Virus record (IMG/VR): IMGVR_UViG_3300031539_000081
Coordinates: 1-44,660 of that record
Direction: 5' to 3' (one strand)
Origin: a virus
Length of the DNA: 44,660 bases
Below the pieces are notes generated by a model. It was not told the origin of the DNA, made no database searches, and was given only the letters and a program-made list of their open reading frames with translations. Shown here one piece after another: positions 743 to 44,660 of the stretch. Each line of letters begins with the position of its first letter. Position 1 is the stretch's first letter. A program made the translations under genes and the position numbers.

Positions 743-771
743 TTGACCCCGATCGCCCTCATGGGTTATAG
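743..771 (+). promoter_or_regulatory. candidate sigma70-type early promoter
   Basis: TTGACC (743-748) and TTATAG (766-771) are separated by 17 bases. A start about 7 bases after the -10 would fall near 778, only a few bases before the ATG at 782, so the first early transcript would be almost leaderless. No Shine-Dalgarno sequence precedes that ATG, which fits. Predicted from sequence only. Confidence 0.5.
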
Positions 772-775
772 ATCG

Positions 776-796
776 CCCCTTATGGCATTAAAGGGG
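776..796. promoter_or_regulatory. inverted repeat over the start codon, possible autoregulatory operator
   Basis: CCCCTT (776-781) and AAGGGG (791-796) flank the ATG at 782. The left arm CCCCTTAT resembles half of the ATAAGG-N4-CCTTAT dyads at 43.8-44.2 kb. It overlaps the predicted transcription start, where a repressor would block initiation. Confidence 0.4.
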
Positions 797-1090
797 TTCG
801 CCGAAAGGCTTCGCGCCGCCCGCGCCGCCGCCGACATGACGCAAGGCAACGTCGCGAGCGCGCTAGGGTATACACCGCAAACCGTTGCCAATTGGGAGCG
901 CGATCGAACCGAGCCGTGCGCGACGGATCTCGCCCGCCTCGCCGCGGTCTATCGAGTGTCGGCCGACTGGCTCTTGACCGGCGCCGCGCGCATGCCTCAC
1001 CGCTTCGAGCGCGCAACGTGCGCTCACGGCGTGCCCGTCGCCGAGCGTTGCCGAGCGTGCGAGCACGAGCCCGCCGGGGCGATGGCATGA
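782..1090 (+). CDS. XRE-family helix-turn-helix regulator with C-terminal Cys cluster
   Basis: This 102-residue protein has a typical XRE/Cro-cI domain in its first 65 residues: FAERLRAARAAADMTQ, then GYTPQTVANWERDRTEP as the turn and recognition helix, then a conserved SADWLLTG ending. The C-terminal tail holds CAHG, CRAC and further Cys/His residues, a possible small metal site. ATG 782 is chosen because it begins directly at the domain; ATG 761 and TTG 737 are in frame upstream but would overlap the candidate promoter. Its stop overlaps the primase start (ATGA at 1087). It probably controls the early operon and perhaps the divergent late side. No protease-cleaved cI-type domain is present. 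Confidence 0.85.
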   Translation: MALKGFAERLRAARAAADMTQGNVASALGYTPQTVANWERDRTEPCATDLARLAAVYRVSADWLLTGAARMPHRFERATCAHGVPVAERCRACEHEPAGAMA

Positions 1091-38764: not shown

Positions 38765-39144
38765 TCGAAGAGATCCTCGCTCGTCGGCAACTTCGCGGCG
38801 GGCTTCGCCGGCGGGCGCGTCGGGCGCGGCGGCGGTTGCCAGTGTTCGGGCGCGGGCTCGGGCGCGGCGTCGGGGCGGCGCTCGGGCAACTCGTCGCGGT
38901 CGAGTTCGGCGAGGCGCTTCGCCGCCCATTGTTCGAACTCACGTTGCCGATCTTCGAGCGCGTCGAAGTCTTCGTCGTGTTTCTCTTCGAGCGCCTCGAC
39001 GGCGGCGCGCGTCGTGTCGTAAGACTTCGCCGCCGCCGTCGTGTCGGGCGGCTTGATCCAACCGAGCGCGCCCGCCACGCCGAGCACGAGCGCGCTCACG
39101 GTTGCGATCGTTTGCTTGTGGCTTGTCGGGATCTCGTCGGGCAT
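38761..39144 (-). CDS. single-pass membrane coiled-coil protein upstream of terL
   Basis: This 127-residue protein has one hydrophobic segment near the N-terminus (IATVSALVLGVAGALGWI). A charged helix rich in Glu/Asp/Lys follows (RAAVEALEEKHDEDFDALED), and a Pro/Ala-rich tail (PPPRPTRPPAKPAAK). This layout is that of small membrane-anchored spanin-like or accessory proteins. Its location before terL rather than in the lysis cassette is unusual. The SD-like GGGGC immediately upstream overlaps the previous stop codon. Confidence 0.65.
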   Translation of the reverse strand: MPDEIPTSHKQTIATVSALVLGVAGALGWIKPPDTTAAAKSYDTTRAAVEALEEKHDEDFDALEDRQREFEQWAAKRLAELDRDELPERRPDAAPEPAPEHWQPPPRPTRPPAKPAAKLPTSEDLFE

Positions 39145-39151
39145 GCGCCCC

Positions 39152-39877: not shown

Positions 39878-40071
39878 GACGGAACCTCGATCCCGTGCTC
39901 GTCGCGCGCCGCCTTGCGCCGCGCTTGCAACTCTTCGAGCCCGGCGACGATCTCGGCGATCGTCGTCGGCGAGATCGTTTTGAGCAACTCGATCGCTTCG
40001 TCGTCTTCGAGATCCTCGAAGTCGATCTCGTCGACGAGCGCGATCAACTTCGTGAGTTCGTGCGCGTTCAT
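39874..40071 (-). CDS. small acidic helical protein
   Basis: This 65-residue protein starts at ATG 40071, overlapping the regulator's stop (ATGA). It is helical and acidic (MNAHELTKLIALVDEIDFED, DDEAIELLKTISPTTIAEIV, GLEELQARRKAARD). It lies between a small XRE regulator and the methylase and overlaps both, so all three are co-translated. It could be a partner or inhibitor of either. No family is recognised. Confidence 0.65.
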   Translation of the reverse strand: MNAHELTKLIALVDEIDFEDLEDDEAIELLKTISPTTIAEIVAGLEELQARRKAARDEHGIEVPS

Positions 40072-40334
40072 GGCGACACCTCGCCGACGAGACGCGTCTC
40101 GATCTCGACGCCGAGCGCGGCGGCGCAACGGTCGAAGAGCGCTTCGGTGATCGAGGCGCTCGCGAAGATCTCGACGATCCGCGGTTGCTTCACGCCGAGC
40201 CGCTCGGCGAATTGCTCTTGAGTTAGCCCCGACTCGTCGAAGGCTTCGCGGATCAAGTCGGCGAACGGGCGTTCGCGACTCGGGCCGGCGACAGTAGACT
40301 CGCGCCGTTTTCGGCGTCGTTGGTTCTTTGGCAT
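40068..40334 (-). CDS. small XRE-family regulator
   Basis: This 88-residue protein has a basic N-terminal arm (NQRRRKRRES) and an XRE domain FADLIREAFDESGLTQEQFA, ERLGVKQPRIVEIFASASIT, then a closing helix. It resembles antitoxin-type or Cro-like regulators. It is transcribed divergently from the plus-strand transglycosylase gene, and a perfect inverted repeat lies between them. An AATAAGGAAAC ribosome site precedes ATG 40334. It probably represses both directions. Confidence 0.8.
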   Translation of the reverse strand: MPKNQRRRKRRESTVAGPSRERPFADLIREAFDESGLTQEQFAERLGVKQPRIVEIFASASITEALFDRCAAALGVEIETRLVGEVSP

Positions 40335-42554: not shown

Positions 42555-42616
42555 GGGTTCGGTTCTCTTTCGCGTTGGGGGCGCCGTGGCGGGCGCCGGT
42601 TCGTTTCCTTATACCA

Positions 42617-42671: not shown

Positions 42672-43748
42672 CTAGTTCGTGTCGGCGAGCATGGCTTCGA
42701 GCAAGCCCTTGCCGAGCAAGTCGGCGTCGACGCCGGCGTCGGTCGCTTGCCCGACGGTCATGCTCTCGACGCGACCGTCGGCGAGGATCACGTCGACAAG
42801 GTGCAAACACTCTTCGACGCGCTTGCCGCGCGCGCCGAACAGCATCGAACCGACCGCCGAGCCGCGCGTCGTTCGGCTCGTGCCATCCTCGTTGCGGTCG
42901 ACGAGATACGTGCCCGCGTTCCAAAGCGTGGCGAGGTTACCCGCGCCGCCGACGCGGTTGCAGGGTAGGGCGGCGGCGACGCGTGCGGCGGCGCGGCGGT
43001 TCTCGGCGAGCGTGACCGCACGAGCGCTCGGCGCGGCTTCGCCCGGCGCGGCGACGGCTTCGGGAAAGAACGCGTCGAAGGCGGCACGGGCGGCGGCGCC
43101 GGGCAAGTGCACGAGCGCGGCGCGGTCGAAGAGCGCCGACACGGCGGCGCCTTGCTCGGCGACGGCGACCATGCCGGCGGCGAGGCGGTTCACTTTCTCG
43201 TCGAGCGACGCGGTGTGGCGGATCTTGCACCAATCGCCGCCCGAGCGCTTCGCCGAGCCGAGCATGCTCGCCATTTGGTTTGCGCAAAACGGGCGCCCGA
43301 CAATGCCGCCGCCGACGAGCAACGTGTCGCCGTCGAAGCCGTCGCCGAGCACGAGCGTCGAGGTGAGCCCGCTCTTGTGGTTGCTCTCGACCGAGAACAT
43401 TGCCGCGACCTTAGAGCCCCAACCGTGCGAGCCGAACGGCTTCGCGCCGGCGGCGACGGCGGCGTTCACGAGTTCACGCCATTGCGCGGCGCTCGTCGCG
43501 TTGAACCGTGAGCCGTTGATCCCGAGCACGCGGCGCCCGCCGTCGCGATACTCGCCGACGATCGCGCGCTTGTTGCCCGCCTTGATATGCGAGCCGCCGT
43601 CGTTCGCGAACACGCTCGCCTCGCGCACGTCGACGGGCCATTGCCCGGCGCGCTCGGCGTTGTCAATCATCTCGGCGGCGGTCGACACGGCGAGCGTGAG
43701 CGGGGTTCCGAAAGTGGCGGCGGCGGCGATGTTGTTTTCGAGGGTCAT
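42672..43748 (-). CDS. DUF932-like protein
   Basis: This 358-residue protein starts at ATG 43748. It has an N-terminal MTLENNIAAAATFGTPLTLA, a central VVGRPFCANQMASMLGSAKR-like region (read in part as FCANQMASML) with KIRHTASLDEKV, and a C-terminal NLATLWNAGTYLVDRNEDGT followed by a short MLFGARGKRVEECLHL end. The 'CxNQM ... K-x-R-H-T ... LW..GTY.VD' order is that of DUF932 phage/plasmid proteins, whose role is unknown. It is the first gene after the repeat-bearing island, so it may be expressed early or strongly. Other identities are possible. Confidence 0.6.
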   Translation of the reverse strand: MTLENNIAAAATFGTPLTLAVSTAAEMIDNAERAGQWPVDVREASVFANDGGSHIKAGNKRAIVGEYRDGGRRVLGINGSRFNATSAAQWRELVNAAVAAGAKPFGSHGWGSKVAAMFSVESNHKSGLTSTLVLGDGFDGDTLLVGGGIVGRPFCANQMASMLGSAKRSGGDWCKIRHTASLDEKVNRLAAGMVAVAEQGAAVSALFDRAALVHLPGAAARAAFDAFFPEAVAAPGEAAPSARAVTLAENRRAAARVAAALPCNRVGGAGNLATLWNAGTYLVDRNEDGTSRTTRGSAVGSMLFGARGKRVEECLHLVDVILADGRVESMTVGQATDAGVDADLLGKGLLEAMLADTN

Positions 43749-43799
43749 GGTCTTGTTCTTTCGTGGGCCGACTTGATTGCCGGATCTCTGTTCTCCCAC

Positions 43800-43815
43800 A
43801 TAAGGCTATCCTTAT
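43800..43815. promoter_or_regulatory. dyad site 1 (ATAAGG-N4-CCTTAT)
   Basis: ATAAGG ctat CCTTAT, perfect 6-bp arms with a 4-base spacer. It lies about 50 bases upstream of the DUF932-like start, inside its likely promoter. Confidence 0.75.
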
Positions 43816-43819
43816 CAAC

Positions 43820-43847
43820 AATTATCTCGTCGCCCGTCGAGATAGTT
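43820..43847. repeat. inverted repeat
   Basis: AATTATCTCG (43820-43829) and CGAGATAGTT (43838-43847) are 10-bp arms with one mismatch and an 8-base spacer, immediately next to dyad site 1. Confidence 0.6.
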
Positions 43848-43923
43848 GCGAGAGCCCGCCGCCTCACTCGGCGAGCCCGAGAGAATAGGAACGGGCGCGC
43901 GCGTAGCATGCGCCGTGCCACGT

Positions 43924-43939
43924 ATAAGGAAAGCCTTAT
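43924..43939. promoter_or_regulatory. dyad site 2 (ATAAGG-N4-CCTTAT)
   Basis: ATAAGG aaag CCTTAT, perfect arms. The site continues with GGCACG and a nearby CTTGC, which are shared with site 4, so the repeat unit is larger than the dyad itself. Confidence 0.75.
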
Positions 43940-43987
43940 GGCACGGTGCTTGCTTTGGTCGCTTGTTCAGGTAGGGCGCTTGCGCCT

Positions 43988-44003
43988 ATAAGCCTACCCT
44001 TAT
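43988..44003. promoter_or_regulatory. dyad site 3, one mismatch
   Basis: ATAAGC ctac CCTTAT, one mismatch in the left arm. A half-site CCTTATAGGG follows at 44024-44033. Confidence 0.6.
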
Positions 44004-44090
44004 AACGACACTTCGGCACACTTCCTTATAGGGATTGCTCGCGCTCAGGGGTGCCGCCACGGCGTCGAGGCTCTAGATCGACCCCTTGCC

Positions 44091-44109
44091 CGTTTTCGGC
44101 TCGAAAACG
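44091..44109. repeat. short hairpin
   Basis: CGTTTTCG (44091-44098) and CGAAAACG (44102-44109), perfect 8-bp arms with a 3-base loop. It could act as an operator or a small terminator. Confidence 0.6.
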
Positions 44110-44142
44110 CCGTAGCGCGGTTCGACTTAACACTTGTTCAGT

Positions 44143-44158
44143 ATAAGGTTTGCCTTAT
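44143..44158. promoter_or_regulatory. dyad site 4 (ATAAGG-N4-CCTTAT)
   Basis: ATAAGG tttg CCTTAT, perfect arms. It is flanked by GT upstream and GGCACG then CTTGC downstream as at site 2. Confidence 0.75.
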
Positions 44159-44183
44159 GGCACGAGCCTTGCACACCTACACG

Positions 44184-44223
44184 AAAACGGCCCACCTACA
44201 CAGGGGGGTGTGTAGGTGGGCCG
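44184..44223 (-). terminator. intrinsic terminator downstream of small terminase
   Basis: A perfect 15-bp stem is formed by 44188-44202 and 44209-44223, with a six-base C loop in the minus-strand RNA. The stem is followed on the minus strand by TTTT (44187-44184). It lies about 25 bases past the small terminase stop and separates that gene from the next leftward gene. Confidence 0.9.
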
Positions 44224-44247
44224 ACGCCACGAAAGAACGAACGAGCC

Positions 44248-44660
44248 CTACTCTAGCACGCCCGCCTTCGACTCGATCGCTCGCATGGTCTCGATCTCGT
44301 CGAGCGTGAGCCTCGACAAGTCGAACTCGACGCCGTGGTGAACGCGCTCGGTTGCCTCGCCGCGCACGAGTCGCTCGATCGTGATCATGTCTTTGAGCAT
44401 GCCTCGCACGTCGTTCGGCGACCAACCGTCGAGCGCCTCGCCGGCGGCGAGCCGAGCGAGCCAACCGTCGACAACCGAGCGCGCGACGTGCGCCGCGTCT
44501 TGCGCGATCTTCGCGTGGCGGGCGGCGGTGTCGCGCGCCGACTCGGCGAGCACGTCGACAACCGCCGCGACGAGCCCGGCGTCGAGGTGTCGGTCGAAGG
44601 CGGCGCAACGCTCGAACCACGCGTCGGCGTCGGCGTACCGTCGCAACGTGCGCTCGTCGA
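44248..44660 (-). CDS. probable terminase small subunit, C-terminal part (continues from left end)
   Basis: This open frame enters from the right edge and stops at TAG 44248-44250. Joined to bases 1-369 it gives the complete roughly 189-residue protein. The C-terminal 66 residues contain LAAGEALDGWSPNDVRGMLK followed by DMITIERLVRGEATERV and LSRLTLDEIETMRAIESKAG, all helical, consistent with an oligomerisation and portal-contact region. A short ATG start at 44646 would only give a fragment and is not used. Confidence 0.5.
   Translation of the reverse strand, partial: DERTLRRYADADAWFERCAAFDRHLDAGLVAAVVDVLAESARDTAARHAKIAQDAAHVARSVVDGWLARLAAGEALDGWSPNDVRGMLKDMITIERLVRGEATERVHHGVEFDLSRLTLDEIETMRAIESKAGVLE
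44449..44660. repeat. right copy of terminal direct repeat
   Basis: Same sequence as bases 1-212 apart from G at 44533 (A at 85). See the left copy. Confidence 0.95.

Follow-up and report, generated by a model that had tools for sequence, protein, structure and literature searches.

A putative operator array of ATAAGG-N4-CCTTAT dyads ahead of the leftward operon in an uncultured virus group

The window, by which we mean the whole stretch of 44,660 nucleotides analysed here, begins with 212 bases (1-212) that recur at 44449-44660 with a single mismatch at position 85, and the record therefore closes into a circle of 44,448 bp, though no end class marks it as such. The gene for the small terminase subunit (terS) lies on the minus strand across the record junction, comprising positions 1-360 and 44248-44448, the former encoding an N-terminal part that matches phrog_6299 (terminase small subunit, E 4e-7), and is followed by a terminator hairpin at 44188-44223 (minus strand) with a 15-bp stem and then TTTT. 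Rightward genes start at 782 with a small helix-turn-helix (HTH) protein of the XRE type (XRE1, 782-1090, plus strand), a P22-C2/DicA-like repressor and the first gene of the replication (early) operon, which continues with primase-like and exonuclease-like proteins, a helicase and DNA polymerase A; the stop codon of XRE1 and the start of the primase-like gene (1087) overlap. Leftward genes run from 43748, beginning with a DUF932/TIGR03299-like gene (42672-43748, minus strand) whose product matches Pfam PF06067 (E 4e-4) and NCBIfam TIGR03299 (1e-7), both under the cut-off, and continuing with small genes, a second HTH_3 protein (XRE2, 40068-40334, minus strand), terL, portal, head, neck, tape measure, baseplate and lysis genes. 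The presence of baseplate proteins suggests a myovirus-like virus. Integrase-type lysogeny was rejected, as neither PF00589 nor PF07508, representing tyrosine and large serine integrases, was matched in any of the three records tested. An Rfam scan of the window returned nothing at gathering cut-offs.

A non-coding island (43749-44247, minus strand), bounded by the start codon of the DUF932-like gene (ATG at 43748) on one side and terS, ending at 44248, on the other, forms the leader of the leftward operon and contains four copies of the dyad ATAAGG-N4-CCTTAT. We number them along the minus-strand operon from s1 to s4. The first, s1 (44143-44158), is perfect and is followed on the minus strand by a conserved ACTGAACAAGTGTTAAG; s2 (43988-44003) carries one mismatch and has the spacer GTAG in all four genomes that possess it; s3 (43924-43939) is perfect and has GTGCC/GGCAC arms on either side; and the gene-proximal s4 (43800-43815), the last before the DUF932-like gene, is again perfect, with the spacer ATAG in four of the five genomes having it. 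A lone ATAAGG half-site at 44024-44029 (minus strand) stands 26 nt upstream of s2 and is found at 25 nt in two of the relatives described below, G006 and G007. The CTGAACA that follows s1 also occurs between s2 and s3, and another palindrome, CGTTTTCGAGnCGAAAACG, lies between s1 and s2 (about 44050-44110 of the window, minus strand) and takes a changed form in relatives.

These are the only matches with two or fewer mismatches in the whole window, as against a mean of 0.09 and a maximum of 2 in 100 dinucleotide shuffles, and the three perfect copies and one imperfect copy claimed in the earlier note are thus confirmed in number and in place. By count alone the dyad is outdone in the window by a few GC-rich gapped palindromes, for example CGCCGA-N5 with five copies versus three exact dyads, and it stands out by its clustering and conservation rather than by its number. 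When gapped palindromes in the four islands were listed without bias, the dyad family came first, ATAAG-N6-CTTAT having 14 copies and being present in all four. The additional flank that the same note saw in common between the sites at 43924 and 44143 also holds, extending over 32 nt at 81% identity, and the GTGCC/GGCAC flanks common to s1 and s3 are consistent with duplication of a longer unit. At s3 these arms form part of a longer inverted repeat (window 43915-43960; L017 6845-6895) whose stem is strong in G007 (z -4.07) and weaker in the window (z -1.58).

Scans with DUF932, XRE1, TerS and TerL identified five related records, all uncultured: G001 (L005), G002 (L006), G006 (L016), G007 (L017) and L059. 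The four genomes compared in full have a common gene order. Four perfect dyads in G001, and three perfect and one single-mismatch dyad in G007, occupy the same gap in the same order as in the window and at similar spacings (155/64/124 in the window, 144/57/108 in G001 and 144/59/169 in G007), so that the motif scan of the window and its relatives, which had been proposed as a check, found the dyads kept in place. G006 has three dyads, one of them partly deleted. A deletion (L016 3920-4770) has removed its s3 and s4, and of the DUF932-like gene only the back half is left, joined to the region of s2. G002 keeps s4 alone, in front of a gene unrelated to DUF932, and L059 has at least one dyad (s4), its contig beginning 4 nt before this site. 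When four genomes are compared two by two over the s1-s2 segment, 22-24 of the 24 positions in the dyad halves are the same, as against 51-70% of the other columns. Across the 17 dyad sites in six genomes the halves are near-invariant and the N4 centre differs between positions. Read in the late direction, 16 of 17 sites have a purine next after the dyad, and 14 of 17 do in the opposite direction, so that the full site may be 18 nt long, YATAAGG-N4-CCTTATR. That relatives keep these palindromes in the same place makes it very probable that a regulator made by the virus itself docks on them, an ordinary kind of switch.

Among the 80 TerL loci listed, three of which belong to this clade (G006 and G007 not being included), the other 77 have no dyad with one or no mismatch in the adjoining DNA covered, which is at most 10 kb on either side. 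The 16-mer ATAAGGATAGCCTTAT matched 26 stretches, three of them known relatives (L014, L032, L049) and each of the other 23 with a lone dyad; 21 of these 23 lie in contigs with a GC content of 0.41 or less, the other two being L031 (GC 0.58) and L041 (GC 0.52). The 21 we take as chance, lone copies of ATAAGGATAGCCTTAT being common in other viral contigs. A pattern including the extended dyad flank gave no match, and a two-dyad pattern matched G001 only. Megablast of positions 20000-44660 gave no cultured relative. In tblastn searches against phages the DUF932-like protein and XRE2 had no match and TerS had one weak partial match, XRE1 gave partial HTH matches in 14 records at less than 60% identity, and the portal protein matched 1767 records, every one below 60% identity. 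No prophage copy was confirmed in genome contigs with TerS (34 stretches) or XRE1 (596 stretches), and a literature search by title and abstract found no paper on the dyad motif or its pairing with a regulator.

The clustering of the dyads in a non-coding gap would also suit plasmid-like partition or replication-origin repeats, which the earlier note had offered beside operators. We consider this barely credible: neither ParB (PF02195) nor ParA (PF13614) was matched in any of the three records tested, in searches that were positive in 10 and 14 of 14 control genomes, and the spacing of the dyads differs among relatives. A better origin candidate is a second repeat family, TGAGAC/TGAGACAC, at 415-690 between terS and XRE1. 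Five genomes (the window, G001, G006, G007 and G002) carry 6-11 copies of it in this gap, whose GC content is 0.45-0.56; six of the eight TGAGAC copies of the window fall within 421 bp. These repeats are a candidate origin or pac site. Packaging has also to be weighed for the dyads themselves, as the array adjoins terS, and full-length records are cut at differing points, as expected of circularly permuted genomes. It is nevertheless very unlikely that the small terminase subunit reads the array as a pac site, as G002 retains one perfect dyad with a TerS only 43% identical to that of G001, an exact two-fold dyad over promoters suits a dimeric HTH repressor better, and the TGAGACAC repeats beyond terS are an equal candidate.

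Palindromes in a leader may also act as RNA, and some of the dyads do fold better than shuffled sequence (z -4.07 for s3 of G007 and z -2.58 for s2 of the window). A structured leader in which the dyads serve as hairpins is still highly improbable, given a covariation term of +0.69 kcal/mol, which leaves the consensus fold with no net covariation support, a mismatch in s2 (G against G) that is kept uncompensated in the window and G007, and the invariance of the letters themselves rather than of pairing alone.

The gene-proximal site overlaps a sigma-70-like promoter in three of the four genomes in which this could be assessed, namely G001 (TTGACC-17-TATACT), G007 (TTGACC-17-TATATC) and G002 (TTGCCT-18-TATACT); the fourth is the window, where no -35 element was seen at s4 (best 2 of 6), and in L059 the region is outside the contig. 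A promoter tool called none in the island of the window, and of the stretches scanned from the window, G001 and G007 it called the G001 promoter alone. At the other end of the array s1 is followed by TATACT in four of four genomes, with no -35 in any. This last feature, together with the TATNNN that follows every dyad and the CII-like family (phrog_4836) among the matches of XRE1, could indicate that the dyads are activator or phage-promoter elements, with CCTTAT-A/G forming part of the -10 and the bound factor turning leftward (late) transcription on. Such a positive role seems unlikely to us. The TAT is forced by the dyad itself, the opposite direction also reads TAT-purine in 14 of 17 sites, and at s4 of G001, G007 and G002 a -35 is present, where a dimer would block RNA polymerase.

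A degenerate dyad agreeing at 9 of 12 positions lies at 768-783 (plus strand), where it covers the XRE1 start codon and the -10 box before it. Read in a fixed register its counterparts score 11/12 in G007, 10/12 in G006, 8/12 in G001 and 6/12 in G002, and random 66-nt windows were as good at frequencies of 0 for G007 and for G006, 0.0045 for the window, 0.02 for G001 and 0.83 for G002. As the TATA of the -10 box and the ATG account for five of the 12 letters, only G007 and G006 have strong dyads at this position. By eye the XRE1 promoters read TTGACC-18-TATAGA in the window, TTGCCC-17-TATAAG in G007, TTGCTC-18-TATACC in G002 and TTGCAA-18-TATGTA in G001, with none clear in G006. Since the ATG follows the -10 box by about 9 nt, the XRE1 message may be leaderless.

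The right half of this dyad is the half-site at 776, one of two CCCCTTAT copies at gene starts, with that at 39148, from which a regulon had been suggested. Both copies are present, and the former has better counterparts in two relatives; the latter is most simply explained as the Shine-Dalgarno sequence of the gene starting at 39144 (ATAAGGGGCGC-ATG, minus strand). CCTTAT occurs six times outside the island, and four of the six read as ATAAGG on the minus strand 4-9 nt before an ATG (16550, 22864, 39150 and 40339), in the manner of a Shine-Dalgarno sequence. Upstream of the gene after DUF932 there is a conserved TATAAGGAA (window 42607-42612; L005 2906, L016 4950, L017 7733), which is followed by a GC hairpin in most genomes and whose position is not that of a ribosome site.

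The virus encodes a repressor homologous to P22 C2: XRE1 aligns to C2 without gaps, and its profile (A2) matches 1adr/2r1j at E 6e-8 to 7e-8. XRE1 also matches DicA and RstR profiles below the cut-off. Its structural model (mean pLDDT 69) resembles P22 C2 and ImmR (Foldseek, 1adr at rank 8, E 3e-3), the best matches by E-value being the HTH domain of the enzyme HppE. A C-terminal CxH...CxxC motif, possibly a zinc knuckle, is found in all four aligned orthologs. Residues 32-33, which by analogy we take to be the specificity positions of 434 and P22, differ in all four orthologs (PQ, SA, AT and VA), while the dyad is constant. XRE2 is found in all six genomes and its recognition helix, Q-x-R-x-x-E, is invariant in all of them, the Q, R and E presumably occupying positions equivalent to 28, 30 and 33 of 434. 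XRE1, which has a dyad at its own start, was accordingly dropped as a certain binder, its recognition-helix positions varying while those of XRE2 do not. The binder would be one of the two proteins, and we lean slightly to XRE1, the assignment to it being tentative.

That XRE2 alone binds the dyads is possible, if somewhat doubtful. It would then feed back on its own leftward operon and shut the early operon through the XRE1-start dyad, and its presence in every genome and inside the controlled operon, as well as the correspondence of the invariant Q, R and E with an invariant half-site containing GG, are in keeping with such a role. On the other side, the start of XRE2 has no dyad and only an ATAAGG Shine-Dalgarno, the protein has weak similarity to solved repressor-DNA complexes, and it is 45% identical between the window and G002.

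With either regulator, the array probably represents a set of operators through which a dimer of a phage XRE protein represses the leftward operon. The original suggestion of operators gains support from the relatives (same motif, gap and order) and from the dyad over the XRE1 start. Set against it are the lack of a -35 at s4 of the window, the XRE1-start dyad that is absent in G002 and weak in G001, the variable residues 32-33 of XRE1 and site start-to-start spacings of 46-169 bp. We infer that each 16- to 18-bp site would be bound by a dimer of a small XRE (lambda-repressor-fold) protein, that a dimer on s4 would lie across the leftward promoter, on its spacer and -10, and so block transcription, and that s1-s3, as upstream sites, would contribute occupancy or looping. 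The operon thus held off would comprise the DUF932-like gene, XRE2, terL, portal, head, tail and lysis genes. In some members the weaker dyad at the start of XRE1 would temper the early (replication) operon, and relief might come by titration as genomes multiply. A further version, which we regard as quite unlikely, is a timer coupled to replication in a phage without an integrase: the early operon would supply a repressor that weakly controls its own synthesis, the four strong operators carried by each genome would keep the late operon off until, with rising genome numbers, operators exceed repressor and late genes come on, and the late switch would need neither an antiterminator nor a phage RNA polymerase.

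Published accounts describe the central segment of P22 C2 and 434 repressor sites as read by groove shape (PMC3711457), and the related 933W repressor is likewise cited for a centre read in this way (PMC3317979). For the present viruses, a myovirus group for which searches of the phage collection, at their sensitivity, brought up no close relative, the analysis supplies a concrete operator motif together with two regulators as candidates, and gene timing in the group becomes testable on short DNA fragments. If a repressor does hold the late operon in the absence of an integrase, this would contrast with timing by antiterminators or phage RNA polymerases.

Among known systems, HigA/HTH_37-type regulators resemble XRE2 in its HTH with a QPR recognition helix and in weak HigA matches, whereas no partner toxin gene was identified here and XRE2 falls under the curated NCBIfam cut-offs. 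With the lambda operators OL and OR, bound by CI and Cro, the array has in common that there are several operators and that XRE1, like cro in lambda, opens the rightward replication operon. It differs in having no adjacent operator triplet and no divergent cI gene, and in a leftward operon that holds late genes. Cooperative operators of the lambda type lie 20-25 bp apart, and no such clustering was found at the start-to-start spacings of 46-169 bp seen here. The operators of the P22 C2/434/DicA type differ from the present array in that four widely spaced sites lie here about 1 kb from XRE1, beyond terS, with a different half-site and no integrase found. They resemble it in a small XRE repressor colinear with P22 C2 and in conserved dyad halves around a variable 4-bp centre (17 sites in six genomes); a site over promoter-like sequence, as in that type, is seen in G001, G007 and G002, the window having no -35 and L059 being cut short. 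Read as operators, the dyads are an array of a known kind with a new motif, in an uncultured virus group.
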